Notes under the pieces: generated by a model
The model's input: the letters and a program-made list of their open reading frames with translations, nothing else
Database searches by the model: none
What the model was told of the DNA's origin: nothing
Shown here: positions 17,653-34,560 of the stretch, in pieces
Layout of the letters: each line of letters begins with the position of its first letter
Position numbering within the stretch: the stretch's first letter is position 1
Position numbers and translations under genes: made by a program
NCBI GenBank assembly: GCA_022841745.1
Contig: JALHQW010000035.1
Location: 1 to 64,000 of the forward strand
Source of the DNA: Saprospiraceae bacterium
GTDB taxonomy: Bacteria > Bacteroidota > Bacteroidia > Chitinophagales > Saprospiraceae
Direction: 5' to 3'
DNA: 64,000 nt

Positions 17653-17678
17653 TAAACGCATCAAAATTGATGCGTTTA
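17653..17678. promoter_or_regulatory. intergenic palindrome of KilA-N architecture
   Basis: Twelve-base arms TAAACGCATCAA and TTGATGCGTTTA with AA at the centre. Read in codon steps it is AAA-CGC-ATC-AAA | ATT-GAT-GCG-TTT, the same plan as the palindromes inside the KilA-N genes. It ends 44 bases upstream of the KilA-N copy 2 ATG, a plausible operator position, and 17 bases after the phosphoesterase stop. A terminator role is less likely because no T-run follows. Confidence 0.55.
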
Positions 17679-17722: not shown

Positions 17723-18553
17723 ATGGCAAAAAGGCAAATCATACAAGTGGATGGTTCGGATATTTCCCTGCTGTCCGTTGACAAGGAAGAATACATTTCG
17801 TTGACCGACATTGCCAATCGCTTCGGCGACGATGTGATGATTTATTCTTGGATGCGCAACCGCAATACCGTGGAATTCCTAGGCGTGTGGGAGCAATTGC
17901 ACAATCCCGATTTTAAAGGTCACGAATTCGTGACCTTTAAAACGGAGGCTGGCTTGAACAACTTCAACCTGACGCCAAAGAAGTGGGTTGACGCCACCAA
18001 CGCCATTGGAATCCTTTCAAAAGCGGGGCGCTACGGCGGCGGCACTTATGCCCATCAAGACATTGCTTTGGAATTCTGTTCATGGCTCAGTCCGGTGTTC
18101 AGGCTTTACGTGCTCAAAGAGTTCCAACGGCTAAAAGAGGCGGAAACTGACCTCGACTGGAACGTGCGCCGCATCATGGCGAGCGCCAATTACCGCATCC
18201 ATACAGAGGCCGTGAGGAAGCACCTCGTGCCGCCACTCCTCCAAAGAACGGACAAAGAGGGGCTGGTGATGGCAACGGAGGCCGACTTGCTCAACTTGGC
18301 GCTATTCGGCATGACGGCGAAGGATTGGCGGCTTCAAAACCCCGACGAAAAGGGAAACATTCGTGACCACGCCACGCACGAACAGCTATTGGTGCTGTCG
18401 AATCTCCAAAGCCTGAACGGTCGCCTACTCAAATGGGGCTGCGACAAAGAACAACGCCTGCAAATACTGAACGAAACGGCTATAGAAGAGATGGAGATTT
18501 TACTCAATAACCCTTCACTGAAGGAATTGGGCGACTTGAAAAAACTGGAGTGA
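17723..18553 (+). CDS. KilA-N domain DNA-binding protein, copy 2
   Basis: A 276-residue protein. Residues ~1-135 are KilA-N (EEYISLTDIANRF; YSWMRNRNTVEFLGVWEQLHNPDF; WVDATNAIGILSKAGRYGGGTYAHQDIALEFCSWLSPVFRLYVLKEFQRL), followed by a conserved C-terminal region with YRIHTEAVRKHLVPPLL, ATEADLLNLALFGMTAKDW and EKGNIRDHATHEQLLVLSNL. No phage genes are nearby, so it is a stand-alone chromosomal DNA-binding protein of unknown target. The codons for FKGHEFVTFK form a perfect 32-base palindrome inside the gene. Confidence 0.9.
   Translation: MAKRQIIQVDGSDISLLSVDKEEYISLTDIANRFGDDVMIYSWMRNRNTVEFLGVWEQLHNPDFKGHEFVTFKTEAGLNNFNLTPKKWVDATNAIGILSKAGRYGGGTYAHQDIALEFCSWLSPVFRLYVLKEFQRLKEAETDLDWNVRRIMASANYRIHTEAVRKHLVPPLLQRTDKEGLVMATEADLLNLALFGMTAKDWRLQNPDEKGNIRDHATHEQLLVLSNLQSLNGRLLKWGCDKEQRLQILNETAIEEMEILLNNPSLKELGDLKKLE
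17911..17942. repeat. perfect 32-base intragenic palindrome in KilA-N copy 2
   Basis: The half-site TTTTAAAGGTCACGAA is followed by its exact reverse complement. The codon pairs are TTT/AAA, AAA/TTT, GGT/ACC, CAC/GTG and GAA/TTC, centred on GAATTC. Confidence 0.95.
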
Positions 18554-18630
18554 GGTAATATTTACCATGAAAATTTGTACCCCGGCTGTCAGTTTTTCAT
18601 GGATAAACCACTTCGTTCAAAAAGATGCGC

Positions 18631-18638
18631 TATGTTTG
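18631..18638 (+). promoter_or_regulatory. TonB receptor promoter -7 element
   Basis: TATGTTTG matches TAnnTTTG, 31 bases before the ATG at 18669. No clear -33 element. Confidence 0.45.
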
Positions 18639-18668
18639 AATCAACTGGAATTCAACTAATTGCGAAGT

Positions 18669-20858
18669 ATGAGAACTAAACTAATTACGCTCATCGGGTT
18701 GATGCTGTTCTTTGGGGAGGGTAGGGCGCAGGAGCGGGTGCCGGAGGCGTTGCCGATTCCACCCTTAAAAGCTATTCATTCTATGACGCCTTTTGAATCA
18801 TATCTAGATAAGCCAAAATTACCTCCCGGTAAAATTTACCCACCCCTACCCACAATCGTCGTCACTGCGCAACGTATGGAGACCGATGCGAGCAAAACAC
18901 CTGCATCCATTGTGGTGTCGAGGTTTTGGGAAGGTAACCGCACTATTCCGGAAGCCCTCACTACTAGTTCAGGTGTGTTCGTCCAAAAGACCAACCACGG
19001 CGGTGGCTCGCCTTTCGTTCGAGGGCTGGCAGGGAACCAAACGCTGTTGCTAATTGATGGCATCCGCCTCAGTAACGCAACTTTCCGCTATGGCCCAAAC
19101 CAATATTTGAATACAGTTGACCCATATTCCATCCAAAACATGGAGGTACTAAAAGGCGGTGGCAGTGTGGGCTATGGCTCGGACGCATTGGGTGGAACAT
19201 TGAATCTTTTATCTCGAGACATACACTTCAATAATATTAATCGTGTAAGGTGGGTAAACAAGGTAACAAGTTATTGGCGCAGCCAGGACATGGAAAAGAC
19301 CCTACACGCTGAATCGAATTTTTCAAGTAAAAAACTAGCTTTTAATGCTGGTGGTACGCTTCGCAATTTTGGTGACCTCGTGGGAGGCGATACGACTGGG
19401 GTTCAAAGTCCCACAGGCTATGATGAAATGGCCTTCCATGTAAAAGCCAAAATTAGGCTTGACACTGCTTCAACACTGATGGTCATGCACCAGTTTTTCC
19501 AACAAACGGATGTGCCTATTTACCATAAAATCGAGTTGGAGGATTTTGCCCGTAACCACGTCAGTTTGCAGCGGCGGCAGTTGAGCTATGCAAGATACGA
19601 ATGGCTGGCACCGCAGCTTCGTACTGCTTGGGGCGTGGAAGGAAGGTCATTGAAAACTGGTCTTCAAAAAATCACAGCGACTGCTTCCATCCATCAGACC
19701 GACGAGCACCGGGAGAGCCAAAAGAACGGCAGCCCAACGCTCCGCAAAGAGGCTGACGGTGTGCGAAGCATTGGTGTATCAGTATTGGCTAAATACAGAC
19801 TTACAGACTGGTGGCTTTCGACCATTGGCGTTGAAACTTACCAAGACCTCGTGGGCAGCACCCGTATTGACGTGGACACTGGTACTGGCAATCAGGCAGC
19901 CAAACGTGGCCTCTACCCAGATGGGGCAACCTACTTGAGCAGCGCCATTTTTTGCACGAACCAATGGGAATCAGGCGATTGGAACTTCACGGGCGGCTTG
20001 CGTTTCAACCATTTTTCCATCAAAGTAGCCGATGAAAACATCGGCAAGGCGCACCTGACGCCTTCGGCATTGGTATGGAATGCGGGGGGGCTCCGCAAAT
20101 TGGACCGTTTCAACTCGGCCTTTGCCAGTTTCAATACCGCCTTCCGGGCGCCCAACGTGGACGACCTTGGCTCGCTGGGCATCGTGGACTTCCGGTATGA
20201 GGTGCCGACAGCAGACTTGAAGCCAGAGAAATCCTACAACATGGAGTTGGGCTGGCGCCACAAGCGAGAACAATGGGGAGCAGAAGTGGCCGTTTTCCGA
20301 AATGAACTGCGTGACCTCATCACTAGGGTTAGGGTCGGGAAGGACAGTATTGCCGGGTATCCCGTTTATCAAAAAGAGAATGTGGGTGAAGGCTATATTC
20401 AGGGAATAGAGTTGAGCAGTTGGTTCAATTTGACAAGAGGGTTTAGGCTGAATGGCAACCTTGCGTGGCAGTATGGCCAAAACGTAACAGACAATGAACC
20501 GTTGCGGCGCATCCCTCCGTTTTTTGGCAATCTTTCACTCATGTATAATAAAGACATGGTGCGCTATCGACAGAAATGGACACATCAAAGCATTGGGGCA
20601 TACGTCGACTGGCTCTTCGCAGCCAAGCAAGTCCGCCTCGCCGCAGGCGACAAGGCCGACAACCGAATCCCCATAGGTGGTACGCCGGGCTGGAACGTGC
20701 TGAACTTTTACGGGTATTGGACGATTCCAAAACGCAGGTTTAATTTTACCCTGCGGGCGGGCCTCTGGAACATCTTCAACGCCGACTACCGCTACCACGG
20801 CTCTGGCGTGAACGGGGTGGGGAGGAGCGTGACGGCGGGGGTGACGGTGGGGTTTTAG
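18669..20858 (+). CDS. TonB-dependent outer-membrane receptor
   Basis: A 729-residue receptor with signal peptide (MRTKLITLIGLMLFFGEGRAQ), a plug domain (residues ~60-190: TIPEALTTSSGVFVQKTNHG, PFVRGLAGNQTLLLIDGIRLSN, LKGGGSVGYGSDALGGTLNL) and a 22-strand-type barrel ending in an aromatic residue (GVTVGF). It lacks the SusC N-terminal carboxypeptidase-like domain and has no SusD partner, so it resembles classical siderophore/vitamin-type receptors. It lies upstream of the second propeller-phosphoesterase gene, suggesting uptake of a product or metal linked to that enzyme. ATG 18669 is preferred over a TTG nine bases earlier. Confidence 0.9.
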   Translation: MRTKLITLIGLMLFFGEGRAQERVPEALPIPPLKAIHSMTPFESYLDKPKLPPGKIYPPLPTIVVTAQRMETDASKTPASIVVSRFWEGNRTIPEALTTSSGVFVQKTNHGGGSPFVRGLAGNQTLLLIDGIRLSNATFRYGPNQYLNTVDPYSIQNMEVLKGGGSVGYGSDALGGTLNLLSRDIHFNNINRVRWVNKVTSYWRSQDMEKTLHAESNFSSKKLAFNAGGTLRNFGDLVGGDTTGVQSPTGYDEMAFHVKAKIRLDTASTLMVMHQFFQQTDVPIYHKIELEDFARNHVSLQRRQLSYARYEWLAPQLRTAWGVEGRSLKTGLQKITATASIHQTDEHRESQKNGSPTLRKEADGVRSIGVSVLAKYRLTDWWLSTIGVETYQDLVGSTRIDVDTGTGNQAAKRGLYPDGATYLSSAIFCTNQWESGDWNFTGGLRFNHFSIKVADENIGKAHLTPSALVWNAGGLRKLDRFNSAFASFNTAFRAPNVDDLGSLGIVDFRYEVPTADLKPEKSYNMELGWRHKREQWGAEVAVFRNELRDLITRVRVGKDSIAGYPVYQKENVGEGYIQGIELSSWFNLTRGFRLNGNLAWQYGQNVTDNEPLRRIPPFFGNLSLMYNKDMVRYRQKWTHQSIGAYVDWLFAAKQVRLAAGDKADNRIPIGGTPGWNVLNFYGYWTIPKRRFNFTLRAGLWNIFNADYRYHGSGVNGVGRSVTAGVTVGF

Positions 20859-20861
20859 CCT

Positions 20862-20940
20862 CTCTGTGGCCCTCTGTGTTCTTTGTGCCTCCGTGTTTAT
20901 TATCAACACGGAGGCACAAAGAACACAGAGGGCCACAGAG
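20862..20940. repeat. 36-bp perfect inverted repeat (hairpin)
   Basis: Arms 20862-20897 and 20905-20940 are exact complements with a seven-base loop (TATTATC). The right arm reads AACACGGAGGCACAAAGAAC and then ACAGAGGGCCACAGAG. Same ACGCAGA/ACACGGAGG word family as 43721-43785. No T-run follows. Confidence 0.9.
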
Positions 20941-21010
20941 GATGTGTGAAATAGATGCTTTGCTGGACAAAATAGTCCGCCTTACTTTACATCGAAATTT
21001 AAAAAAACTG

Positions 21011-23464
21011 ATGATGAAACTTCACTCCTTCCTTCTACTGCTTGCCTTCCTCCTCACCCAATGCACCCCCACCCGCCGCACCGCTTCTGACGACGGCCTG
21101 TACAAGTCCCTTGCCGCCAAGCGGGTGCAACTGCCCAACCAATGGAGCCTGACCCCCGCCGGGCAAGTCCATCGGCAACTCGGCGACCTGCCGCTGCAAA
21201 TCGCCCTCTCGCCCGACGGAACGCTGATGGCCGTCACCTGCAATGGGGTTGGGACGCAGAAGCTGCAACTCTTCCGGACGAGCGATGCGGTGCAGCTGTC
21301 GGAGGTGGAAATCCCGAAGGCGTGGTATGGGTTGGCCTTTTCAAAGGACAATAAAAAACTCTATGCCTCTGGCGGAAATGACAACCTAGTGGCGATTTAC
21401 CGCATTGACAATCAACAACTTGTACGAGATGGCGAAATCGTTTTGGGCAAAACCTGGGACGAAGGGGAGAAAATCTGCCCGACCGGGCTGGCGCTCGATG
21501 AAGCGAACAACCGCCTCTTCGCCGCCACGAAGGAGGACAACTCACTCTACGTCTGCGATTTGCGGAGCAAGAAAGTGGAAAAGAAAATACCGCTCGGCGG
21601 CGAAGCCTATTCCGTGCTGGTTTCATCGAAACAAAACGAGGTGTATGTCTCGCTTTGGGGAGCGAAGAAGGTGTTGGTTTTCGATAAAACCACGTTGGCG
21701 GAAAAAGGCGAAATCACCGTGGGCGACCAACCGAACGAGATGATTTTGAACAAAAAACAAGACTTGTTGCTGGTCGCAAATTCGCACGACAATTCGGTCT
21801 CGGTCATTGATTTGCCGTCCCGAAAAACGCTGGAAGTGCTCAACTGCGCCCTCTTCCCCGATGCCCCGAACGGCTCCACGACCAACAGCCTCGCTTTCTC
21901 CGAGGATGAGGAAACGCTCTACGTAGCCAATGCCGACAACAATTGCCTCGCCGTTTTCGATACGGAAGAACGGGGCGAGAGCCGACCACTCGGCTTCATC
22001 CCCACGGGCTGGTATCCGACGAGCGTGCGCTTTGCCGGAGGCAAAATCGTGGTGGCCAACGGCAAGGGCATGACCTCGCTTGCCAATCCCGACGGCCCAA
22101 GCCCCTTGCGCAAGGCCACGGACGAGAAGGCGGCACAGTACATTGGGGCGCTGTACCTCGGCACCTTGAGCGTGATTGAGCCCCCCCGAAAAATCGGGGC
22201 AGGCTCTTCGGCAAATGGGCTGGCAGCCTATTCCAAACTGGTTTATGAAAATTGCCCGTACAATAAAGCGAAGGAAAAACTGGCCGAAGGCGAAGCCGGA
22301 AACCCAGTGCCCATGAGGGTCGGCGATATTTCACCGATAAAATACGTGTTTTATATCATCAAAGAAAACAGGACGTATGACCAAGTGCTGAGCGACATCC
22401 CGGAGGGAAAAGGCGACACTTCCCTGCTGCTTTTCGGGGAAAAAATCACCCCGAACCAACACTACCTTGCCCGGGAGTTCGTACTGCTCGACAATTTCTA
22501 CGTGGATGCCGAGGTGAGCGCCGATGGCCACGACTGGAGTACGGCGGCATACGCCAACGATTTCAACGAAAAGACCTGGCCCACGAGCTACGGTGGTCGG
22601 GGCGGCAATTACGACTACGAGGCGCACCGCCCCATCGGTCGGCCAAAGGGTGGCTATATCTGGGATGCCTGCAAAGAGGCGGGCGTCAGCTACCGCACCT
22701 ACGGCGAGTTTGCCGACAACAGCAAGGCGAACTACCCGACCATCGCGGGACATTTTTGTCCCGGCTACTCGGCTTGGGACATGGACTACCAAGACATTAA
22801 GCGGCAGGCCGACTGGCAGCGTGATTTTGATAGTTTATTGAATATCAACCAAGTACCTCGTTTCAACAGTATCCGTTTTGGCAACGACCATACATCGGGA
22901 TTGGCCAAGGGCGCCTACTCGCCCTACGCCTCCGTGGCCGATAACGACCTAGCAGTGGGCCGCCTCGTGGAGCATATTTCCCATTCAAAAATCTGGAAGG
23001 AGAGCGCCATTTTCATCCTCGAAGACGATGCCCAAAACGGCGCCGACCATGTGGATGCGCACCGCAGCACAGCCTATCTCGTTAGTCCGTACATCAAGCG
23101 GAAACACGTTGACCATACGCTGTACTCCACCACCTCCATGCTGCGCACGATGGAACTGATTTTGGGCCTGCTGCCCATGAGCCAGTACGATGCCGGTGCA
23201 ACGCCGATGTGGCGCTGTTTTACCGCAAAACCAGATTTCACGCCGATAAAGGCGCTGCCCGCCCAAGTGGACATCGAGGAACGCAACCTAGTGGACAACG
23301 AACTGAGCCGCATCAGCGAGACCTTCAACCTCGCCAAAGTGGATGCCGTACCGGATAGGCTCTTCAATGAAGTTTTATGGAAAGCATTGAAAGGAACAGA
23401 GATGCCAGCGCCAAGGCGGGCGGCATGGGTGAAGGTTGGGGAGGAAGAGGAAGAAGAGGATTGA
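21011..23464 (+). CDS. YncE-type propeller / phosphoesterase lipoprotein, copy 2
   Basis: An 817-residue lipoprotein: signal ending LLLLAFLLTQC (lipobox LTQC), then a propeller (residues ~45-380; LQIALSPDGTLMAVTCNG, AFSKDNKKLYASGGND, LAFSEDEETLYVANADNN) and an alkaline-phosphatase-like domain from ~440 (YVFYIIKENRTYDQV, VSADGHDWSTAAYAND, IFILEDDAQNGADHVDAHRS). It ends with an acidic tail (GEEEEEED). It shares domain order with the gene at 14895 but is surface or periplasm anchored. ATG 21011 (or 21014) precedes the lipoprotein signal; upstream in-frame sequence is part of the hairpin. Confidence 0.85.
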   Translation: MMKLHSFLLLLAFLLTQCTPTRRTASDDGLYKSLAAKRVQLPNQWSLTPAGQVHRQLGDLPLQIALSPDGTLMAVTCNGVGTQKLQLFRTSDAVQLSEVEIPKAWYGLAFSKDNKKLYASGGNDNLVAIYRIDNQQLVRDGEIVLGKTWDEGEKICPTGLALDEANNRLFAATKEDNSLYVCDLRSKKVEKKIPLGGEAYSVLVSSKQNEVYVSLWGAKKVLVFDKTTLAEKGEITVGDQPNEMILNKKQDLLLVANSHDNSVSVIDLPSRKTLEVLNCALFPDAPNGSTTNSLAFSEDEETLYVANADNNCLAVFDTEERGESRPLGFIPTGWYPTSVRFAGGKIVVANGKGMTSLANPDGPSPLRKATDEKAAQYIGALYLGTLSVIEPPRKIGAGSSANGLAAYSKLVYENCPYNKAKEKLAEGEAGNPVPMRVGDISPIKYVFYIIKENRTYDQVLSDIPEGKGDTSLLLFGEKITPNQHYLAREFVLLDNFYVDAEVSADGHDWSTAAYANDFNEKTWPTSYGGRGGNYDYEAHRPIGRPKGGYIWDACKEAGVSYRTYGEFADNSKANYPTIAGHFCPGYSAWDMDYQDIKRQADWQRDFDSLLNINQVPRFNSIRFGNDHTSGLAKGAYSPYASVADNDLAVGRLVEHISHSKIWKESAIFILEDDAQNGADHVDAHRSTAYLVSPYIKRKHVDHTLYSTTSMLRTMELILGLLPMSQYDAGATPMWRCFTAKPDFTPIKALPAQVDIEERNLVDNELSRISETFNLAKVDAVPDRLFNEVLWKALKGTEMPAPRRAAWVKVGEEEEEED

Positions 23465-23514
23465 AATAACCCATTGATTTTCAAAAAAATAAGAATCGAA
23501 ATTTTACTGTCATT

Positions 23515-24954
23515 ATGCAATACCTATTCACCTTCTTTGCCCTCACGGCCATTTTCCGTATCGAAAAACCTGCGGACGCCCCTCCTCCAAACATCGTCCT
23601 CATCTTCATGGACGACCTCGGCTATGGCGACCTCGAATGCTACGGTGGCTACCCGCAGCACACGCCCAACCTAAACCGATTGGCGGCGGAAGGAATGCGC
23701 TTAACCAATTATTATGCGGCGCAGGCCGTATGCAGTGCCTCCCGTGCAGCCCTGCTCACGGGCTGCTACCCCAATCGGGTTGGCATCAGCGGAGCGCTGA
23801 ACCATGAAAGCAAGATTGCCCTGCACCCTCGTGAAGAGACGATTGCTGAACTGCTCAAGGCAAAGGGATATCGCACGGGCATCTTCGGCAAATGGCACCT
23901 CGGCAGCCGGGAGCCGTTCCTGCCCTTGCAGCAGGGATTCGACGAGTACTTCGGCCTGCCTTACTCCAACGATATGTGGCCCGTCAATTATGACGGCACC
24001 CCACTCGACACCACTAATTATCGAGGCCGTTACCCCATCTTACCGCTTATGGAGGGTAACCAGCCACTCCGCTACCTCAAAACGCTGGACGACCAAGCCG
24101 ATTTGACGAAGGTTTATACCGAGCGGGCCGTCCGATTCATCAAGGAGAACCACGAAAAACCTTTCTTCCTGTACCTGCCGCACGCCATGCCGCATGTGCC
24201 ATTGGCTGCTTCGCAAAACTTCCGGGGCAAAAGCGGGCAAGGGCTTTTCGGCGATGTTTTAATGGAAATTGACTGGTCGGTGGGTGAGGTCATGCGGGCG
24301 CTCGAAATGCACGGATTGTCCAACAACACGCTCTTCATCTTCACCAGCGACAATGGCCCATGGCGTACCTACGGCAACCATGCCGGCAGCACGGGCGGCC
24401 TACGGGAAGGCAAAGGAACGGCTTGGGATGGGGGCGTAAAAGTGCCCTGCATCATGCGCTGGCCGGGCCGCATCGCCGCTGGATCGGTCTGCAACAAACT
24501 CGTGGCGGCGATGGACTTGTTGCCCACCATCGCCCATGCCTGCAAGGCCGATTTGCCGAAGGAAAAAATTGATGGCGTGAGCCTCTGGCCACTGCTGGAT
24601 GCACAGCCAGGTGCCAACCCCCGAACGGAATTCGTCTATTACTACGACCGCAACAATCTGAAGGGCATCCGCAAGGGTCAGTGGAAGCTGGTATTTCCCT
24701 GCTCTTCACAGACCTACCTTCATCCCGGAGCAACTGCCGACGACGGGTTCCCCGGCAAATGGGGCAAAACCGAAGTGCCGCTCGCGCTGTACGACCTCAG
24801 CTCCGACCCCGCCGAGACGATTGACCTCAAGGACAGGCACCCCGATGTGGTAACGGAACTATCTGCCCTTGCCGACAAGTACCGAAGGATGTTAGGAGAT
24901 GATTTGGTAAAGGTGGAAGGAACGGAGGTGCGGGCACCTGGGAAGGTGGAGTGA
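23515..24954 (+). CDS. sulfatase (arylsulfatase family)
   Basis: A 479-residue S1-type sulfatase. The metal site PNIVLIFMDDLGYGDLECYG lies near residues 26-45 and the formylglycine site CSASRAALLTG near 80, with Cys as the modified residue. GIFGKWHLGS and FTSDNGPW give further metal and substrate residues. It removes sulfate from a sugar or aryl ester in the periplasm; the N-terminus is short and hydrophobic, consistent with export. It follows the phosphoesterase lipoprotein by 50 bases and probably shares its transcript. No formylglycine-generating enzyme gene is in the window. Confidence 0.9.
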   Translation: MQYLFTFFALTAIFRIEKPADAPPPNIVLIFMDDLGYGDLECYGGYPQHTPNLNRLAAEGMRLTNYYAAQAVCSASRAALLTGCYPNRVGISGALNHESKIALHPREETIAELLKAKGYRTGIFGKWHLGSREPFLPLQQGFDEYFGLPYSNDMWPVNYDGTPLDTTNYRGRYPILPLMEGNQPLRYLKTLDDQADLTKVYTERAVRFIKENHEKPFFLYLPHAMPHVPLAASQNFRGKSGQGLFGDVLMEIDWSVGEVMRALEMHGLSNNTLFIFTSDNGPWRTYGNHAGSTGGLREGKGTAWDGGVKVPCIMRWPGRIAAGSVCNKLVAAMDLLPTIAHACKADLPKEKIDGVSLWPLLDAQPGANPRTEFVYYYDRNNLKGIRKGQWKLVFPCSSQTYLHPGATADDGFPGKWGKTEVPLALYDLSSDPAETIDLKDRHPDVVTELSALADKYRRMLGDDLVKVEGTEVRAPGKVE

Positions 24955-25087
24955 AAAGGAATTCTTGTTGCCTTTCTTCCTGTTGTCGTTCAGTTTTAAT
25001 AGTCAACCATTTTCAGTACAGACAAAGCGATTCTCTAGCTTGTTTAACATAACTAAGATTACCAACAATAAATTGCTGCATGAAAAA

Positions 25088-25122
25088 AGCCAGCAAAGGA
25101 TTGATTTGCTCCTTTGCTGGCT
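25088..25122 (-). repeat. 13-bp hairpin with minus-strand T-run
   Basis: AGCCAGCAAAGGA and TCCTTTGCTGGCT pair perfectly around nine bases. On the minus strand the stem is followed by TTTTTT, the form of an intrinsic terminator for leftward transcription, yet no minus-strand gene ends here. Confidence 0.6.
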
Positions 25123-25359
25123 GCCAATATATTATCCCAACCCAGTCTCTGCTGGATCCAGGTTGTATCTCTTGGTGCAAGCTCAAAGTCTGAATCTGGG
25201 GTCAAAATTTTTGATTCTAAGGGCAATTTGGCTAAATCCTTCAAAGGCGAAAATTCCTTGCATGAAATCGAGACGAGCAATTACCCTTCAGGTATCTATT
25301 ATGTTCAGTACATAATTGAAGGAAAGAGCGAAACCCAAAGGTTTTCTATCACCAATTAA
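25123..25359 (+). pseudogene. remnant of a T9SS C-terminal sorting domain
   Basis: One frame reads YYPNPVSAGSRLYLLVQAQS and, after a frameshift near 25180-25195, another reads SGVKIFDSKGNLAKSF and continues ETSNYPSGIYYVQYIIEGKS to a stop at 25359. Together these are the start (YPNPV) and end (PSGIYYVQ) of a type A T9SS sorting domain. No secreted protein is attached upstream, so it is the 3' relic of a lost gene or of a rearrangement. The rest of 24955-25600 holds only hairpins. Confidence 0.7.
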
Positions 25360-25402
25360 TTGGTTCAGTCAGTATTTATAAATCGAGTCTCTCATAATAT
25401 AT

Positions 25403-25437
25403 TTGGGGTTATACTGGCTTCGCCGGTATAACCCCAA
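25403..25437. repeat. 16-bp hairpin
   Basis: TTGGGGTTATACTGGC and GCCGGTATAACCCCAA pair (one G-U) around TTC. Possible RNA structure; no T-run follows. Confidence 0.6.
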
Positions 25438-25508
25438 GTTATTTCTAGCTAATGGATTTGATTATTAATGGAGTATCTATCAGACCATCAAAATCGTTTC
25501 GAATAAAG

Positions 25509-25542
25509 AGAGACTGGCCAGTTTAGGGCTGTCTCTTTTTTT
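25509..25542 (+). terminator. intrinsic terminator before GH20 gene
   Basis: Stem AGAGAC/GTCTCT with inner GCC/GGC pairing, followed by a run of T (25536-25542). Confidence 0.65.
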
Positions 25543-25600
25543 ACCCAAAACCATTCCCTAACTTACCCGCCAATTCGTTCAAAACAAAACAACGACCACC

Positions 25601-28156: not shown

Positions 28157-28178
28157 ATATTTTGAAACGAAACGAAAT

Positions 28179-29285
28179 ATGACAGCCATCTCCACTCCAT
28201 CCCGCCTCATATCCCTCGACGCCCTGCGTGGCTTCACCATCATGGCTATGATTGTGGTGAATGACCCCGGCTCGTGGGACCACGTCTATGCGCCGCTGCT
28301 ACACGCCACTTGGAACGGCGTCACGCCGACGGACTATATCTACCCGTTTTTCATCTTCATCATCGGGGTGTCCATTGTAATGGCCTACCAAAAGCAACTC
28401 GACGCCAACGCCGACAAAGCTGCATTGGCCAAAAAGGCCGCTTGGCGGGCTTTGAAGATTTACCTCGTCGGGCTGTTCCTTTGGCTTTGGCCACAGTTCG
28501 ACTTTGGCGGCATCCGCTGGACGGGCGTTTTGCAGCGCATCTCGGTGGTGTTTCTGCCCTGCGCCCTGTTGTTCCTCTACTCGGACTGGAAAACTTGGCT
28601 GCGGGTGGGCATCGGTACGCTGGTGGCCTATTGGCTCATTATGGCCTACTTGCCAGTGCCCGGCATCGGCTCACCCGATCTCTCCGTGCCGGAAAAGAAC
28701 TGGGCGCACTACCTCGACAGCATCGCCCTGCCGGGCGTGCTTTGGCAAAAAACATGGGACCCAGAGGGCATTCTGAGCACCTTCCCTTCTATCGTGACGG
28801 GCATCACGGGCATGTTGGCGGGCAAGCTCATCCTCACTGTGAAAGACGACTACCGCCGACTCACTTGGCTATTCTTCTGGGGCTTGGTGATGCTAACTTT
28901 GGGCGAGGTTTGGAGCTGGTTTTTCCCCCTTAACAAGCACATCTGGACGAGCAGCTATGTGATGCACACCTCGGGGCTGGCGTTCATGGCCTTGGCGGCG
29001 AGCATGTTCGTGATTGACCTGCATGGCCGCACCCGCTGGATTAAGCCGGGGCTGGTCTTTGGCGCCAACTCCATCACCGCCTACGTGCTTGCTGGGATGC
29101 TGACAGCGGTGTTCTACTCCGGTTATGGCGATTTCCCCGGTTTGAACAAGCTCTGGGTGGATGGGCTTTCGAGGGCTGACCTTTCGGCCAAATTTGCCTC
29201 GCTGACTTATGCACTGCTGTACGTGGCGGTCATTTTCCTGCCGGTTTACTGGCTGTACAAGAAGAAGATTCTTATCAAGCTATAG
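28179..29285 (+). CDS. nagX: NagX-like transmembrane acyltransferase
   Basis: A 368-residue membrane protein of the heparan-alpha-glucosaminide N-acetyltransferase/DUF5009 type. Near the N-terminus it has RLISLDALRGFTIMAMIVVNDPGSW and a histidine in PLLHATWNGVTPTDYIYPFF, the family core, followed by about nine more hydrophobic helices. Related NagX proteins are linked to N-acetylglucosamine use. It starts 23 bases after the GH20 gene, so it is probably in the same operon; the enzymatic role is inferred from family and context. Confidence 0.85.
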   Translation: MTAISTPSRLISLDALRGFTIMAMIVVNDPGSWDHVYAPLLHATWNGVTPTDYIYPFFIFIIGVSIVMAYQKQLDANADKAALAKKAAWRALKIYLVGLFLWLWPQFDFGGIRWTGVLQRISVVFLPCALLFLYSDWKTWLRVGIGTLVAYWLIMAYLPVPGIGSPDLSVPEKNWAHYLDSIALPGVLWQKTWDPEGILSTFPSIVTGITGMLAGKLILTVKDDYRRLTWLFFWGLVMLTLGEVWSWFFPLNKHIWTSSYVMHTSGLAFMALAASMFVIDLHGRTRWIKPGLVFGANSITAYVLAGMLTAVFYSGYGDFPGLNKLWVDGLSRADLSAKFASLTYALLYVAVIFLPVYWLYKKKILIKL

Positions 29286-29352
29286 AAAATGAGGTGGCGT
29301 AGCCGTAATATCGCAGCCTCGTTGTTTTATTTTTACCCAAACTAAACTTACT

Positions 29353-30471
29353 ATGAAGAAAAAACCGCACCCCCAGCCGCACGATTTGCTGTTTGCCGAG
29401 GTTTTTTCGAGGACGGAAGTAGCGGCCAGTTTCATTAAAAACTTTGCGGGCGATGAGCTGCCCATGCAAAAGCTGAAATTAGAGACGCTGCGGCTTGAGC
29501 CTTCGTCCTACGTTAAACCTGACTTGAAGCGTTTCTACTCCGACCTTGTTTTTAGCTGCGAATACGGCGAAGCGTCCGTGGAAATCAGCATCATCAAGGA
29601 GCACAAGAGCACGCCTCCCGTTGACCCACATTTCCAGTTGCTGGATTATATCAGCGAAAAATGGCGGCAGGAAGCAAAGCAAAAGAAGAAACGGACGCCC
29701 GTCATCGCCATATTGCTATACCACGGCAAACAGCGTTGGCAGCACAGGCCGATGGGGGCATACCTACATGGGATGGACGATGAACTGGCCCCTTTCAACC
29801 CCTTGTTCGAGTTCATCTTGGTTGACTTGGCAAAATACGACGACGAGTTCATCCTCCGGTTGAATACGCTTTTCCTTGTCAATGCCTTGCTGATGTTCAA
29901 GCACAGCGGCGATTCTGACTATGTTAGGCAGCACATCGGAAGGATATTTGTTTATGCAGAGCGGTATGAGGTAATGGACGAGGGCAAAAAATTCATTGCC
30001 ACCATCCTTGTGTATCTCAGCAAAACCACAGAACTTAGTGCGGATGAAATCGTTGAATTAACAGCATTTACTACACCATTAAAAAACAACGCCATGGTTG
30101 GATACACTTTATTGGATTACGAGCTTGACTTGCGAACAAAAGCCTTTGAGAAAAAAATTAAAGCAGAAGCCAGAGCAGAAGGCCTTGCAGAAGGAAAGGC
30201 AGAAGGAAAGGCAGAAGGAAAGGCAGAAGGAAAGGCAGAAGGAAAGGCAGAAGGAAAGGCAGAAGGAAAGGCAGAAGGAAAGGCAGAAGCTTTTGCCCTA
30301 AAGGAATATATCGTCATTAAGCGAGGCTGGACCAAAGGCATCGCCCCAGAACTGATTGCCGATATCGGCGATATCCCGCTCGAAAAAGTGAAGTCCGTCA
30401 TTGCAAACTTGGAGGAAGAAAAAAAGCAGCAAGCTCCCAAAAAAGCTGCAAAGCCTAACAAGAAGCAGTAA
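29353..30471 (+). CDS. Rpn/PD-(D/E)XK recombination-promoting nuclease
   Basis: A 372-residue protein of the Rpn/transposase_31-like family: PHDLLFAEVFSRTEVAASFIKNF at the start, then the nuclease core DLKRFYSDLVF...VEISIIKEHKST (residues ~55-85) matching D-x(n)-(D/E)-x-K, and VIAILLYHGKQRW. Rpn proteins are DNA endonucleases, often mobile or phage-defence associated. Near residue 277 begins (AEGK)8, encoded by eight exact 12-base repeats, and then a Lys/Ala-rich tail. Copy number of that array could vary by slippage without changing frame. Confidence 0.82.
   Translation: MKKKPHPQPHDLLFAEVFSRTEVAASFIKNFAGDELPMQKLKLETLRLEPSSYVKPDLKRFYSDLVFSCEYGEASVEISIIKEHKSTPPVDPHFQLLDYISEKWRQEAKQKKKRTPVIAILLYHGKQRWQHRPMGAYLHGMDDELAPFNPLFEFILVDLAKYDDEFILRLNTLFLVNALLMFKHSGDSDYVRQHIGRIFVYAERYEVMDEGKKFIATILVYLSKTTELSADEIVELTAFTTPLKNNAMVGYTLLDYELDLRTKAFEKKIKAEARAEGLAEGKAEGKAEGKAEGKAEGKAEGKAEGKAEGKAEAFALKEYIVIKRGWTKGIAPELIADIGDIPLEKVKSVIANLEEEKKQQAPKKAAKPNKKQ
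30193..30288. repeat. 12-base tandem repeat, 8 copies
   Basis: GGAAAGGCAGAA repeated eight times without a mismatch inside the Rpn-type gene. It encodes GKAE units, and in-frame copy-number change would lengthen a charged helix. Confidence 0.95.
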
Positions 30472-30503
30472 TTCCTTTCATATTTACGGTAGTTTTATCA
30501 GAA

Positions 30504-30545
30504 AAAATGACCGGGTGGCTTTTCCTATCCACTCGGTCATTTTTA
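30504..30545 (+). terminator. intrinsic terminator after Rpn gene
   Basis: AAATGACCGGGTGG pairs with CCACTCGGTCATTT (one G-U) around a ten-base loop, ending in TTTTTA. It lies just before the SIS-protein ATG. Confidence 0.8.
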
Positions 30546-30559
30546 TAAGCATCTATTTC

Positions 30560-31276
30560 ATGTTCGAATATTTCGAAAAAATAAAGGCCCAACTCGACCG
30601 CCTCGTGAAAGGCCAAGAGGCCGCCATACATCAAGCTGCCAAGTGGGTGGCCGATACCCTCGTCCACGACCGCATCATCCACACCTTCGGCACGGGGCAC
30701 TCCCACATGATAGGATTGGAGCTTTTCGTGCGGGCGGGCGGCCTCGCCAATGTGAACGCTATGCTTGATAGCATCGTGATGACGGCAGAAGGCGCAAGGC
30801 GCAGCGCCGAAATCGAGCGGGTGCCGGGCTTGGCGAAAATCATCTGGGACCAGCACAAAATCTCCCCTGACGACATCATTTTCGTCATCTCCAATTCCGG
30901 GCGCAACGCCATGCCCATCGAAATGGCACAAATTGCGAAGCAAAAAGGACTAAAGGTCATCGCCATCACTTCCTTGGAGCAGTCGGCTAAGTACCCCTCC
31001 CGCCACCCCAGCGGCCAGAAGCTGATGGACCTCGCCGACCTCGTGCTCGACAACCGGGTGCCATCCGGCGACGGCGTCATGCAGATTGACGGCAATTTGG
31101 TGGGGGCGGTCTCCACAATTTCGGGGGTTTTTCTCGTAAACCTTGTCGCCACGGAGGGCATGAAGCTGGCTACGGCACAAGGCGTGAAGCTGCCCATTTA
31201 TTTTAGCCAAAACATTGATGGCTTCAGCAATGAAGAACTATATGGAATGTACAAGGATAGGGTGAAGCATCTTTGA
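30560..31276 (+). CDS. SIS-domain sugar-phosphate protein (UPF0309-like)
   Basis: A 238-residue SIS-domain protein: IIHTFGTGHSHMIGLELFVRAGG near residue 35 and DIIFVISNSGRNAMPIEMAQ near 105 form the phosphosugar-binding loops. Proteins of this type bind or isomerise phosphosugars, often amino sugars. ATG 30560 gives the family start and lies just after the terminator stem, so the gene probably has its own promoter within or near the hairpin. The GH20 and nagX-like genes upstream suggest amino-sugar metabolism. Confidence 0.85.
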   Translation: MFEYFEKIKAQLDRLVKGQEAAIHQAAKWVADTLVHDRIIHTFGTGHSHMIGLELFVRAGGLANVNAMLDSIVMTAEGARRSAEIERVPGLAKIIWDQHKISPDDIIFVISNSGRNAMPIEMAQIAKQKGLKVIAITSLEQSAKYPSRHPSGQKLMDLADLVLDNRVPSGDGVMQIDGNLVGAVSTISGVFLVNLVATEGMKLATAQGVKLPIYFSQNIDGFSNEELYGMYKDRVKHL

Positions 31277-31512
31277 AGATGCTTGATATTGGCTACTACA
31301 TTGATACTGGATGCTAAGTGATGGGCAGAATTGATAATGTAGGCATGAGGCTTTTGATATTGAAATTATGAAAGAATTTTGCACAAATCATTGAAATTCA
31401 AAGGATTGCAAAAGGGTTGAAATCGAAAAAACGACCTATGGCCGACCTTACCTGTCCCCTCCATGTACCAACACCGTAAGCATTGAGTATCAGAAGCACC
31501 CATCAACATCAA

Positions 31513-32262
31513 TTATTTCTTGGTTAAGTCCCACCTTACCTTTCCCACTTTGTAATCAAACTTGCCACTTCCGCCCATATCCTCGATTTCGGAGATGATA
31601 AGGTGGTCGCCCTCGTACTTGAAAGCAAAGACAACGGGTTGGCTGCCATCCAATGACAAGGTCATCTGGTCAGCGTCAACCATGTTGTCAATATAGTCGA
31701 ACTTGATGTCGTAGTAATTGTAACCCTCCAAACCGACCACTGTGCCGTTCGGGTTGAAAACCACCTGCTGCCCGTTTAGGTCGTACTGGCCACCCAATAC
31801 CGCATGAGCCACTGTTTTTGCCCCTTCCAGACTGGTGGCAAGGCGCACCATGGTTTGATCATCAAATTTGACAGTACCGTTTTCCAATGGAATAAGCGGC
31901 AGCAAGGCCGTGGCGGCATTGTTTGGGTCATAAAACTCCTGTTTACCCTCCCGTGTACGCACGCCATACTGTGCGCCTTCATGCCAATTATAGCTAAGGT
32001 TGACGATGACCTTTCCTTCGCTTTCCAATAGTATGGCGCCCGATATACCGTTGAGGCCTACTGCCGCCTGTTTTGGCGACTTGGTGGCTTTCACTTTTTC
32101 CCACCATGTTTCGTTCACCCAATAGCCCACAAGGTCGGCAGTTGAGAGCAGTTTACCAGAGGCCTGCTGTTCGGTGGAATTGCCTCCTGTGGTGCCTTCC
32201 TTGCAACCGAAGGAGAACAGGAGGATAAAAAATTGGGTAAAAAAAATGGTTTTGATGTGCAT
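31513..32262 (-). CDS. hypothetical lipoprotein
   Basis: A 249-residue protein with a lipoprotein signal ending ILLFSFGC. The mature part contains LVGYWVNETWWEKV and beta-rich segments (GKVIVNLSYNW, NGTVVGLEGYNYYDIKFDYID, FAFKYEGDHLIISEI), as in lipocalin-like lipoproteins. No catalytic motif; not assigned to a named family. The 236 bases between it and the SIS gene hold no recognisable element. A KilA-N-type palindrome lies 83 bases upstream of its start. Confidence 0.7.
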   Translation of the reverse strand: MHIKTIFFTQFFILLFSFGCKEGTTGGNSTEQQASGKLLSTADLVGYWVNETWWEKVKATKSPKQAAVGLNGISGAILLESEGKVIVNLSYNWHEGAQYGVRTREGKQEFYDPNNAATALLPLIPLENGTVKFDDQTMVRLATSLEGAKTVAHAVLGGQYDLNGQQVVFNPNGTVVGLEGYNYYDIKFDYIDNMVDADQMTLSLDGSQPVVFAFKYEGDHLIISEIEDMGGSGKFDYKVGKVRWDLTKK

Positions 32263-32344
32263 GCTGTAAATCTATAAACTGTTTGAAGTTTCCTTTTACG
32301 TGAAAATTAGGAATCGGATTCCTATTTAGCAGTTCAAGATATGT

Positions 32345-32374
32345 TTTAAACCCTTCCAAATGGATGGGTTTAAA
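32345..32374. promoter_or_regulatory. intergenic palindrome of KilA-N architecture
   Basis: Codon-step reading TTT-AAA-CCC-TTC-CAA | ATG-GAT-GGG-TTT-AAA; 13 of 15 base pairs are complementary. The centre CAAATGGA is identical to that in KilA-N copy 1. It lies between uxuA (3' side) and the lipoprotein gene (5' side), so it could be an operator; a uxuA terminator is possible but no T-run is present. Confidence 0.5.
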
Positions 32375-32424
32375 GCAAAGACTGACGCAACTGAAAACTG
32401 CCCCCTGTCGAACTGCCACCTCCC

Positions 32425-33585
32425 CTACCCCATCGCATACGCCAAACCTTTTTCTAGTCCCCTCAACTCCGCCAGCCCCCGCAGCCTTCCAATGGCCGAG
32501 TAGCCGGGATAGGTCTTCTTGTCGAGGTCGTCGAGCATCTGGTGGCCGTGGTCGGGGCGCATGGGGATGCTCAGCTTTCTGCGCTGCATGATGGCCAGCA
32601 CCTCTTTCACCACGGCGGGCATATCCGTGTCGCCGCCGAGGTGATCGGCCTCGTGGAAGCTGCCGTCAGGTTCCAGTTTGGTATTGCGCAGGTGCAGGAA
32701 ATGGATATGGTCGCCGAATTTTTTAACCATCTCCGCCACGTTGTTGTCGGGTCGGGAGCCATAGCTTCCCGTGCAGAAACAAAGGCCGTTGGCGGGCGAA
32801 GGGGCGGCGGCTAGTAGTTCCTCCACGTCTTTTTCGGTACAGACAACCCTCGGCAAGCCCAGCACGGGAAACGGTGGGTCGTCGGGGTGGATGGCCATGC
32901 CCAGACCCACTTCTTCGGCCACGGGCACAACTTCTTTCAGGAAGTCGAAGAGGTGCTTTTTCAGTTCCCTCGGGCCGATATTGGCGTAGCCATCCAACGC
33001 CTCCAGCACCTCGGAGGCCGTGAAGGACTCGTCGTCGCCGGGCAGCCCGAGCAGCATGTTTTCATACAAAACCCGCTTGAACTCATTGGTCATTCTATCG
33101 AATTTGGCTTTTGCTGCCGCAATATCTGCGCTTGGGTAGTCCTTTTCAGCCCCCGGTCTTTTCAACAAAAACAGGTCGAAAGCGATAAACGCCGAGCGGT
33201 CAAAGCGCAAGGTGCGGCTGCCATCGAGGAGTGGGAAAGCCGTGTCGGTGCGCAGCCAGTCAAGCACGGGCATAAAGTTGTAGGTGATGACTTTCAGGCC
33301 GCATTGGGCGAGGTTGCGCAGGCTGGTCTTGTAGTTTTCGAGCTGTTTTTTCCACTTGCCCGATTGCCGCTTGATGTCCTCGTGGACTGGCAGGCTCTCC
33401 ACCACGGTCCAGGTCATCCCAACGGCCTCTATCTGCTTTTTGCGCTTCTCGATTTCCGACACGGGCCACACATCGCCGTACTCGATATGGTGCAGCGCCG
33501 TGACCACGCCCGTGCAGCCCGCCTGGCGGATGTGCCAAAGGGTAACGGGGTCTTCCGGGCCGTACCAGCGCATGGTTTGTTCCAT
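32425..33585 (-). CDS. uxuA: mannonate dehydratase
   Basis: Dehydrates D-mannonate to 2-keto-3-deoxygluconate in glucuronate breakdown. The 386-residue protein from ATG 33585 starts MEQTMRWYGPEDPVTL like E. coli UxuA, with TALHHIEYGDVWP, GLKVITYNFMPVLDWLRTD, HPDDPPFPVLGLPRVV (metal site), FCTGSYGSRPDNN and MRPDHGHQML. Two earlier in-frame starts (33594 and 33603) add only MYL or MTSMYL. The uxaA-type gene 1 kb upstream belongs to the parallel galacturonate branch. Confidence 0.94.
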   Translation of the reverse strand: MEQTMRWYGPEDPVTLWHIRQAGCTGVVTALHHIEYGDVWPVSEIEKRKKQIEAVGMTWTVVESLPVHEDIKRQSGKWKKQLENYKTSLRNLAQCGLKVITYNFMPVLDWLRTDTAFPLLDGSRTLRFDRSAFIAFDLFLLKRPGAEKDYPSADIAAAKAKFDRMTNEFKRVLYENMLLGLPGDDESFTASEVLEALDGYANIGPRELKKHLFDFLKEVVPVAEEVGLGMAIHPDDPPFPVLGLPRVVCTEKDVEELLAAAPSPANGLCFCTGSYGSRPDNNVAEMVKKFGDHIHFLHLRNTKLEPDGSFHEADHLGGDTDMPAVVKEVLAIMQRRKLSIPMRPDHGHQMLDDLDKKTYPGYSAIGRLRGLAELRGLEKGLAYAMG

Positions 33586-33728
33586 TAAATACATGGAGGT
33601 CAAGTTTTGCGTTATGAGTTTTGAGTTTCGAGTTTGGGCGGGTGCAAAGAAAGGGAATTTTGATTACTGAAATAACGCAGGTCAGTTGGGGGACGGCGGT
33701 TTTGCTATTTTTGCGGAAACAAAATGCT

Positions 33729-34560
33729 ATGGCCAAAAACACCATCAACGTTCAGGGTATCGAGGTCCGAGTGCAAAAAACGGAACAAGGGGATTTCATT
33801 TGTTTATCAGACATTGCAAAGGTAGTTGACCAGCCCACAAGTTATACGTTGCGGAACTGGCTACGCAACCGCGCCACGGTGGACTTCCTGGGTGTTTGGG
33901 AGGCCGCCTACAATCCGAGTTTTAATAGCGTCGAATTCGACGCTATTAGAAACGAGAGCGGCTCCAATAGCTTTGCAATTGCTGCCGGCGACTGGGTTGA
34001 AAAGACCTATGCCATCGGCTTGAACTCGACCGCTGGCCGCTACGGCGGCACCTTTGCGCATTTCGACATTGCTATCCATTTCTGCAATTGGCTTAGCCCT
34101 GCTTTTTATGTCCATTTTGTGAAGCAGTTCAGGGAGTTGAGAGAATCCGAGGCGGCCCGGCTTGGTGAACGATGGGACTTACGCCGCGAACTGGCCAAGG
34201 GAAATTATTTCATCCATACAGATGCCGTGCGCACGAACATCGTGCCCGTGCTGGATTGGAACACGAAGCGGGAAGGGCTTTACTTCGCCTCCGAGGCGGA
34301 TTTGCTCAATGTCGTCGTTTTTGGCACAACAGCCAAAACTTGGAAAGCCGCCAATCCCGACAAGAAAGGAAACCTCCGGGATTTTTGCAACCGTGAGCAA
34401 GCTTCGGGTGCTCGCCAATATGGAGACCATCAATGCCACCCTGATTGAGCAAGGTTTTACAAAGGAAGAACGGCTGCTCATCCTTTCGAAAAGAGCAGAA
34501 AGGGAGTTTGCGATTTTGGAGGAGGTGAAATTGATTGGTGAGCAAAAAAAGCTGAAATAG
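33729..34560 (+). pseudogene. KilA-N domain protein, copy 3, frameshifted near the 3' end
   Basis: From ATG 33729 the frame encodes a KilA-N domain (GDFICLSDIAKVVD; LRNWLRNRATVDFLGVWEAAYNPSF; WVEKTYAIGLNSTAGRYGGTFAHFDIAIHFCNWLSPAFYVHFVKQFREL) and a C-terminal region like copy 2, but stops at 34448. Homology continues in the +1 frame to 34560 (ATVSKLRVLANMETINATLI...). The break lies at the T5 run 34382-34386: with four T the reading becomes KGNLRDFATVSKL, matching copy 2. This may be a real null allele, slippage, or a homopolymer sequencing error. The codons for FNSVEFDAIR form a palindrome. Confidence 0.85.
33920..33951. repeat. intragenic palindrome in KilA-N copy 3
   Basis: The perfect 26-base core 33923-33948 has half-site TAATAGCGTCGAA and its exact complement. 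It extends to 32 bases with one mismatched pair. Codon pairs: AAT/ATT, AGC/GCT, GTC/GAC, GAA/TTC; the outer TTT/AGA is imperfect. Confidence 0.95.

Follow-up and report, generated by a model that had tools for sequence, protein, structure and literature searches.

In this study, we analyzed three KilA-N genes of a Saprospiraceae bacterium and the palindromes that lie within their coding sequences. The window, i.e. the whole stretch of 64,000 nucleotides under analysis, comprises positions 1–64000 of contig C35 of a genome of 8.43 Mb in 178 contigs. In a profile search, all three genes matched the KilA-N family PF04383 with 62–68 bits (curated cut-off 23.8). Palindromes of 26–32 base pairs (bp) were found at a fixed position of the coding sequence in KilA-N genes of the same genome, of other phyla and of viral contigs. 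Their arms remain complementary while the letters change, and the letters covary with residues of the predicted recognition helix of the encoded protein, which suggests that each protein reads a DNA address spelled within its own gene.

KilA-N genes and palindromes in the window

A palindrome scan of the window recovered the two perfect palindromes that the initial annotation had reported for copies 2 and 3, and the codons, amino acids and reverse-complementary codon pairs were as first described (Table 1). By arithmetic, random sequence of 64 kb should contain about 0.001 perfect gapless palindromes of 26 bp and about 0.000015 of 32 bp. The decayed version ascribed to copy 1 was found as a weaker, imperfect palindrome in this minus-strand gene. 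The C-terminal part of copy 3 shifts frame, which points to a break or a misreading of this gene near 34.4 kb; its palindrome is perfect despite the frame break before the C-terminal end, which may be due to decay or a sequencing error.

The whole genome contains 18 KilA-N hits, and with the best even-centered palindrome taken per domain, 16 of them have a mid-domain palindrome with 10–14 of 14 pairs complementary, no two of the 16 being alike. The exceptions were locus L010, whose domain has no palindrome, and locus L008, whose best palindrome lies elsewhere in the domain. Loci L001, L013 and L018 have a different protein sequence around the palindrome and were assigned to a separate class B, to which L010 also belongs.

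Table 1. Features of the window related to the KilA-N genes (positions counted from the first nucleotide of the window).
Feature	Position	Strand	Remarks
KilA-N copy 2 (P0001)	17723..18553	+	276 amino acids; PF04383 at residues 10–139; full-length PDC-S22 profile match
Perfect 32-bp palindrome, KilA-N copy 2	17911..17942		Core GGTCAC-GAATTC-GTGACC; codons for F-K-G-H-E-F-V-T-F-K
Copy 2 codons 37–42	17831..17848	+	Start of second helix of the predicted helix-turn-helix; residues 37, 38, 41 and 42 covary with palindrome core
Stand-alone palindrome, KilA-N form	17653..17678		Center 261 bp upstream of copy 2 in-gene center; core CGCATC differs from that of copy 2
KilA-N copy 3	33729..34448	+	ATG-started open frame of 239 amino acids; C-terminal part in another frame (34162–34560)
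Perfect 26-bp palindrome, KilA-N copy 3	33923..33948		Core AGCGTC-GAATTC-GACGCT
KilA-N copy 1, short form	14207..14773	-	PDC-S22 profile positions 1–156 of 281 only
Imperfect palindrome, KilA-N copy 1	14551..14576		Q-M center CAAATG; pair 1 mismatched, also pairs 4, 5 and 14
Intergenic palindrome, KilA-N form (TAAACCCTTCCAAATGGATGGGTTTA)	32347..32372		1.4 kb from copy 3 domain; outside all 18 KilA-N hits

Complementarity beyond the encoded peptide

The loci used for comparison stem from relatives in the genus and phylum, from bacterial and archaeal genomes of a collection (the best 80 of 568 confirmed stretches) and from viral contigs (79 loci). The records are assigned to Bacteroidota, Nitrospirae, Verrucomicrobia, Pseudomonadota, Firmicutes, Chloroflexi and others; as many of them are metagenome bins, single taxonomic placements may be wrong. 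The median distance from the start codon to the palindrome is 207 bp. Counted over the whole domain, palindromes with 10 or more of 14 complementary pairs were present in 89 of 95 class A domains from the genus and phylum, in 78 of 78 from the genome collection and in 51 of 55 from viral contigs, and for class B in 14 of 17 and 1 of 1. Since some of these best palindromes (e.g. that of L187) lie elsewhere in the domain, the protein-anchored test is the better number.

In this test, a 32-base window was anchored by protein alignment on the F of the NPxF motif, i.e. blind to symmetry, in 228 non-redundant class A domains, and the core was defined as the six pairs 4–9 counted from the palindrome center. 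The mean core complementarity was 5.29 of 6, compared with a mean of 2.70 and a maximum of 2.93 in 1000 shuffles of the right halves and with 2.88 in a synonymous-codon null calculated for each gene's own peptide. Perfect cores were present in 127 of the 228 domains (0.6% expected from synonymous codons) and represent 44 distinct core sequences. At the outer and central pairs, the peptide accounts for most of the complementarity, which in the shuffles reaches 0.85–0.88 at pairs 1–2 and 0.87–0.98 at pairs 11–13. Among 237 distinct class A domains, six core pairs were complementary in 130, five in 68, four in 24 and three or fewer in 15, so that 198 reach five of six or better; GAATTC forms the center in 146 of 198 genes.

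Because relatives are not independent, changes were also counted on a tree of 237 tips that was calculated from the domain with the helix and palindrome columns left out. At pairs 3–10, 182 changes replaced both letters of a Watson-Crick pair by those of a different one, compared with 127 single changes to a mismatch. Both arms of the core changed on the same branch in 148 cases, while 25.9 would be expected if they were independent and 51 were obtained with mis-paired columns. Mismatches in the cores of the 228 domains were more often A-C (53) than G-T (28); this lack of a G-U preference indicates that DNA is conserved rather than an RNA hairpin. The claim that symmetry is maintained while the sequence changes thereby clearly withstood the codon-level comparison of homologs proposed with it, in which a lack of complementarity in excess of the protein-based expectation would have spoken against it.

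Covariation of the palindrome core with the recognition helix

An AlphaFold2 model of the copy 2 protein (mean predicted local distance difference test score 87, predicted template modeling score 0.59) places a helix-turn-helix at residues 27–34 and 38–45. Residues 37, 38, 41 and 42 would form the start of its second helix, and the residues encoded by the palindrome lie in a predicted helix at 66–75. Mutual information with the core letters, calculated from 193 sequences (effective number 47) for the protein columns not encoded by the palindrome, was highest at residues 42, 41, 38 and 37 of the copy 2 protein, followed by positions N82, G35, G77 and G54. In a test restricted to close relatives (99 non-overlapping closest pairs, i.e. 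198 sequences with a core of at least five pairs; 510 tests), the five strongest links were residue 42 with pair 5 (p 3e-13), residue 38 with pair 6 (p 9e-11), residue 41 with pair 6 (p 4e-8) and residue 37 with pairs 7 and 8 (p 2e-7). On the tree, residue 42 and pair 5 changed together on 22 branches (3.6 expected), which was the strongest result of the columns tested.

This strongest link has the form of a code. A left letter T at pair 5 goes with Asn at residue 42 in 126 of 144 cases, G with Asp in 23 of 25 and C with Lys or Arg in 14 of 20. Written with the base of the opposite strand, the code is Asn-A, Asp-C and Lys/Arg-G, which is compatible with textbook contacts between amino acids and bases. 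Copy 3, with Asn and T at pair 5, obeys it; copy 2, with Ser and A, belongs to a small class with A, in which Ser or Thr is found in seven of nine cases. The proposal that specificity co-evolves with the protein thus agrees with the covariation of palindrome letters and recognition helix, the top link of which recurs in class B.

Foldseek searches with the model gave DdrC (E 4e-4) and then, weakly (E 0.3–0.5), Mbp1 and a PCG2-DNA complex; the modeled fold of copy 2 appears similar to APSES/KilA-N winged-helix proteins and to DdrC. Sequence searches of the PDB with P0001 and with A2 gave nothing relevant.

Class B KilA-N domains

Class B served as a replicate with a different protein context. 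A palindrome with at least 9 of 12 pairs was present in 42 of 60 distinct class B domains, compared with 2 of 60 in a control window. These palindromes lie in reading frame 2 (27 of 42) or frame 1 (15 of 42), those of class A in frame 0; GAATTC centers were found in 15 of the 27 frame-2 cases and in only 3 of the 15 frame-1 cases. The extent to which the same DNA form can be read in different frames is illustrated by L001 and L331, which share an identical 22-bp word (CGATACGGGAATTCCCGTATCG) whose two translations are RYGNSRIG and DDTGIPVSE, and which have similar helices (GKKVND and GKRIND).

The strongest of 630 tests on 21 class B pairs linked column D19 with pair 5 (p 0.0017, alone not significant after correction). 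D19 aligns with residue 42 of class A, so that residue, pair and code are the same: G goes with Asp in 23 of 31 cases, T with Asn in 5 of 6 and C with His or Lys in 5 of 5.

Genomic distribution of the palindrome

The own genome was searched with the pattern TAAW-N7-AAWT-N7-WTTA, which cannot detect class B sites and misses some of class A. It occurred at 42 places, at 18 of which at least six of the seven free pairs were complementary. All 18 good sites are located within 1.4 kb of a KilA-N domain, nine inside and nine beside it. The remaining 24 places comprise three at KilA-N loci (the site of copy 1 and two array members) and 21 elsewhere. A second pattern, TAAW-N6-GAATTC-N6-WTTA, was applied to 36 further genomes of the collection chosen for carrying such a KilA-N gene and gave 55 places, 22 of the genomes having a single one. 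Of these places, 49 had 11 or more of 13 pairs complementary; among the 37 of them that were examined, 35 fall within KilA-N frames, in part fragmentary ones, and two (L418 and L430) do not. The other 12 include 11 that are identical to the in-gene palindrome of the locus leading to that genome. None of the six non-palindromic places lies in a KilA-N frame. In viral records, the pattern was present in 23 of 34, once each except in one. A regulator with many operators elsewhere was considered as well and is unsupported, as the sites are nearly confined to KilA-N loci.

Besides the in-gene sites, stand-alone palindromes of the same form were found. The core of 28 of 48 stand-alone sites with a perfect core also occurs inside another KilA-N gene, in part an ortholog. 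External sites were more frequent where the in-gene palindrome has been lost (6 of 15 genes compared with 20 of 222 others, p 0.0025), and three of those six lie 18–42 bp after the open frame. Arrays of three to six sites with at least 12 of 14 pairs precede the KilA-N gene in L002, L050, L052 and L062, with more sites recognizable by eye; many of the array sites bear the cores of other KilA-N genes. The arrays follow a xylose-isomerase-like TIM-barrel gene (PF01261, checked in L036), and their order is similar but not identical across species, being best preserved next to the gene. By eye, some members are decayed, and the non-coding upstream sites of L050, L052 and L062 differ between species in a paired manner, as in TTTGGTGC-AATT-GCACCAAA of L050 and TTTGGTGG-AATT-CCACCAAA of L052.

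Some places have a palindrome and no gene. In L430, a perfect palindrome with the common KilA-N core CCCATC (1501–1526) lies directly after an HsdM gene and before the gene of a nucleotidyltransferase partner (substrate-binding), a place that is elsewhere taken by a KilA-N gene. Genomes G008, G011 and G001 lack a KilA-N gene between the sequences that flank copy 2. In G011, imperfect copies of both the upstream (90%) and the in-gene palindrome (86% over 29 bp) are present at this place. In G008 (contig C71, L152), a different long inverted repeat (GGATTGGAAAGCCCG ... CGGGCTTTCCAATCC) takes the place of the gene.

With regard to orthogonality within a genome, none of 87 within-genome pairs of cores but 32 of 616 between-genome pairs share a core (label-shuffle p 0.009). 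As 20 of the 32 core-sharing pairs are relatives of at least 80% identity and 12 remain, within-genome orthogonality is not claimed.

Two further repeats of the contig were noted. A perfect 32-bp palindrome (CAAACCCCGGAGTCCCGGGACTCCGGGGTTTG) lies near both contig ends, at positions 27–58 of the window and at about 79.2 kb of the 79.3 kb contig; possibly, the assembly broke at a repeat to which it belongs. Its second copy is situated about 589 bp upstream of the L006 KilA-N domain, and its form differs from that of the KilA-N palindromes. At 20862–20940, between two large open frames, lies an inverted repeat whose arms are perfect over 36 bp and enclose a loop of 7 bases.

Protein family and gene neighborhood

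Residues 1–271 of the copy 2 protein align with positions 1–275 of 281 of the PADLOC profile PDC-S22 (E 3e-115), so that the profile covers this protein in full length; copy 3 aligns with positions 1–225, and copy 1 also matches. PADLOC gives no description for this profile, and the one paper found to mention it reports that it co-occurs with other systems. A match to PHROG 2657, annotated as transcriptional regulator, was also obtained, while NCBIfam has no family for P0001 or P0002.

The upstream gene is co-directional in 176 of 207 cases as a raw count. Among 62 selected adjacent same-strand frames (of 159), N6_Mtase was found seven times and Methylase_S four times. KilA-N genes beside type I restriction-modification genes were found in L161, L162, L195, L228, L232 and L237, directly after HsdM in L161, L162, L232 and L237 and before HsdS in L195 and L237. 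The other neighbors are ordinary metabolic genes.

Proposed mechanism and alternative explanations

Symmetry, its compensation, covariation with the helix and confinement to KilA-N loci are covered by the sequence evidence; binding, dimerization and repression are what we infer. In the mechanism proposed here, the KilA-N winged-helix protein would bind, probably as a dimer, to the palindrome of 26–32 bp located about 200 bp into its own coding sequence, and the core of each half site would be read by residues 37, 38, 41 and 42, which lie where the recognition helix begins. Judged from sequence, it is very probable that each protein reads its own in-gene palindrome, and the palindrome is likely to be the cognate address of the protein in cis, an estimate that does not refer to autorepression. 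The palindrome would then be an overlapping code, specifying ten residues, four of them free to vary, together with a DNA address for the protein, situated about 60 bp downstream from where the reading helix is encoded. With the address inside the gene and near these codons, key and lock would be inherited together. Sites of this form are nearly confined to KilA-N loci, often with one per genome. The most likely use would be autogenous control, in which the protein bound inside its gene limits its own transcription, sometimes binding also at a promoter-side copy. Such in-gene control would travel with the gene when its neighborhood changes.

We favor autogenous control as the least demanding use; the 3′ sites and the gene-less sites fit a self tag better. 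If the protein reads its palindrome, we would give autogenous control not quite an even chance and a self-immunity tag a somewhat lower one, while another use appears rather improbable. The initial annotation had proposed that each protein may bind its own palindrome, either as an autoregulatory site or as a self/non-self tag; of this proposal, binding is supported by the symmetry and the helix covariation.

Several observations weigh against the mechanism as proposed. An upstream palindrome of any form within 450 bp of the in-gene center was found in only 33 of 237 class A genes (52 sites, densest at 240–260 bp, roughly 35–60 bp before the start codon). Nine of the 52 (17%, compared with 6.8% with random in-gene cores) have 10 or more of the 12 core letters in common with the gene, namely in L002, L036, L050, L052, L062 (twice), L059, L082 and L218, and six of the nine come from the five orthologous loci L002, L036, L050, L052 and L062. 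Speaking for the mechanism, a promoter-side copy with identical core is present in these five orthologs and in L082, and a nearly identical one in L059. With few upstream sites, mostly orthologous when they share the core, a loop between two sites cannot be general. In L007, L014, L065, L077, L194, L299 and L411, a site follows the open frame by 13–65 bp, which is a poor place for repression, and L418, L430 and G011 have palindromes without a KilA-N gene. Fifteen of the 237 class A genes have a core of three or fewer pairs, and in nine of them an external site is absent from the stretch examined. Columns outside the helix (N80, N82 and G77) also covary with the core, less strongly, N80 with pair 5 being sixth in the close-relative test (p 1.5e-6). 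Finally, the bstA gene of prophage BTP1, which encodes the best-studied KilA-N-like protein and is the nearest precedent discussed below, has no comparable palindrome (best 9 of 14 pairs).

With regard to known systems, lac O2 and gal OI are repressor operators inside a coding sequence, sometimes paired with a promoter-side site; these internal sites lie in a regulated enzyme gene and not in the regulator's own DNA-binding domain. As would be expected of an autogenous repressor, the site lies in the protein's own gene and fits its recognition helix, the fit being one of covariation. No account of palindromes within KilA-N genes was found in the open-licence papers searched, and for binding sites within a protein's own coding sequence the sole match there concerns a promoter site instead.

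A different use of the same binding would be recognition of self: the protein harms or blocks replicating DNA, the in-gene palindrome marks the encoding element as self, and stand-alone palindromes are immunity tags retained after gene loss or acquired against the KilA-N genes of other elements. This is a possibility we regard as rather doubtful. A precedent is BstA of prophage BTP1, described as an abortive infection protein of KilA-N-like type that has in its own gene a cognate self-immunity element, aba, acting as DNA (PMC8585504). The likeness consists in a KilA-N-like domain and a short cognate element that overlaps its own gene, is variant-specific and acts at the DNA level (PMC8585504). 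Aba, as described there, comprises 63 bp with direct CCCGCC repeats at the start of bstA (PMC8585504), whereas the element found here is an inverted repeat at a median of 207 bp after the start; BstA/aba is the nearest precedent, with a common logic and a different form. In the present family, judged from symmetry and covariation, a cognate-looking element lies inside the gene; its role in immunity would be putative. The full-length match to the phage-defense candidate PDC-S22, the relatives in viral contigs, the external sites that are more frequent where the in-gene palindrome is lost (half of them 3′), the cores that stand-alone sites share with other KilA-N genes, the gene-less sites, one of which (L430) lies where other genomes have the gene, and the paired differences of non-coding sites upstream of L050, L052 and L062 all speak for such a tag. 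On the other hand, PDC is a candidate label only with putative defense activity, aba differs in position and repeat type with no palindrome in bstA, and many copies are single chromosomal genes, for which a tag of replicating DNA has no clear use.

The remaining explanations are less probable. Mobile palindromic elements, of which those of Rickettsia are in-frame insertions spread over many unrelated genes, might have been inserted here, or the palindrome might be a recombination site that moves the gene; stand-alone copies, arrays and the missing gene at the place of copy 2 in G008, G011 and G001 would agree with this. We consider it improbable, as none of the 18 good sites of the own genome lies away from a KilA-N locus and the sequences, with 44 distinct perfect cores, do not represent copies of a single element; such near-confinement to KilA-N loci and the many different cores are also unlike the Rickettsia elements. 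Perfect palindromes could also be kept without function by templated mutation, i.e. hairpin-primed repair (quasi-palindrome correction), which by reasoning would yield compensatory changes in coding and non-coding sites alike. It leaves the confinement to KilA-N, the fixed position in the domain and the same helix code in two classes unexplained, and some array members have decayed, so that its probability is small. Slightly less probable still is an RNA hairpin in the messenger RNA, kept for translation control or RNase processing: a 32-base palindrome would fold strongly, and compensatory change is the classic sign of an RNA stem, but the ratio of G-T to A-C mismatches is the reverse of what RNA stems tolerate and the helix covariation in two protein classes has no place in it. 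Constraint by the protein alone, in which F-K-x-x-E-F-x-x-F-K happens to give a palindrome, was rejected and retains a negligible probability. Palindromic codons are indeed favored by the central E-F and by the outer F-K and I/F-K/R; the inner six pairs nevertheless exceed the synonymous expectation by far, and class B palindromes lie in other frames with other residues.

Implications

In a bolder and correspondingly tentative view, these genes form a self-addressed family whose target is spelled in its own DNA-binding domain, and gene-less palindromes and arrays with the addresses of other genes would be a record of immunity or memory of KilA-N elements, the palindromes serving as self/non-self DNA tags instead of sites of a simple repressor. 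Key and lock would lie within about 110 bp, new specificities would arise by joint change of helix and site, and dozens of addresses in three reading frames would be distributed across phyla and viral contigs. If the binding proposed here holds, a protein and its own binding site share one coding stretch across phyla, and the family offers a ready recognition code with hundreds of protein-site pairs readable from genomes. It would also provide a target for a phage-defense candidate of unknown mechanism and a link to the self-immunity idea of BstA. What bacterial KilA-N proteins bind thereby becomes directly testable with few oligonucleotides.

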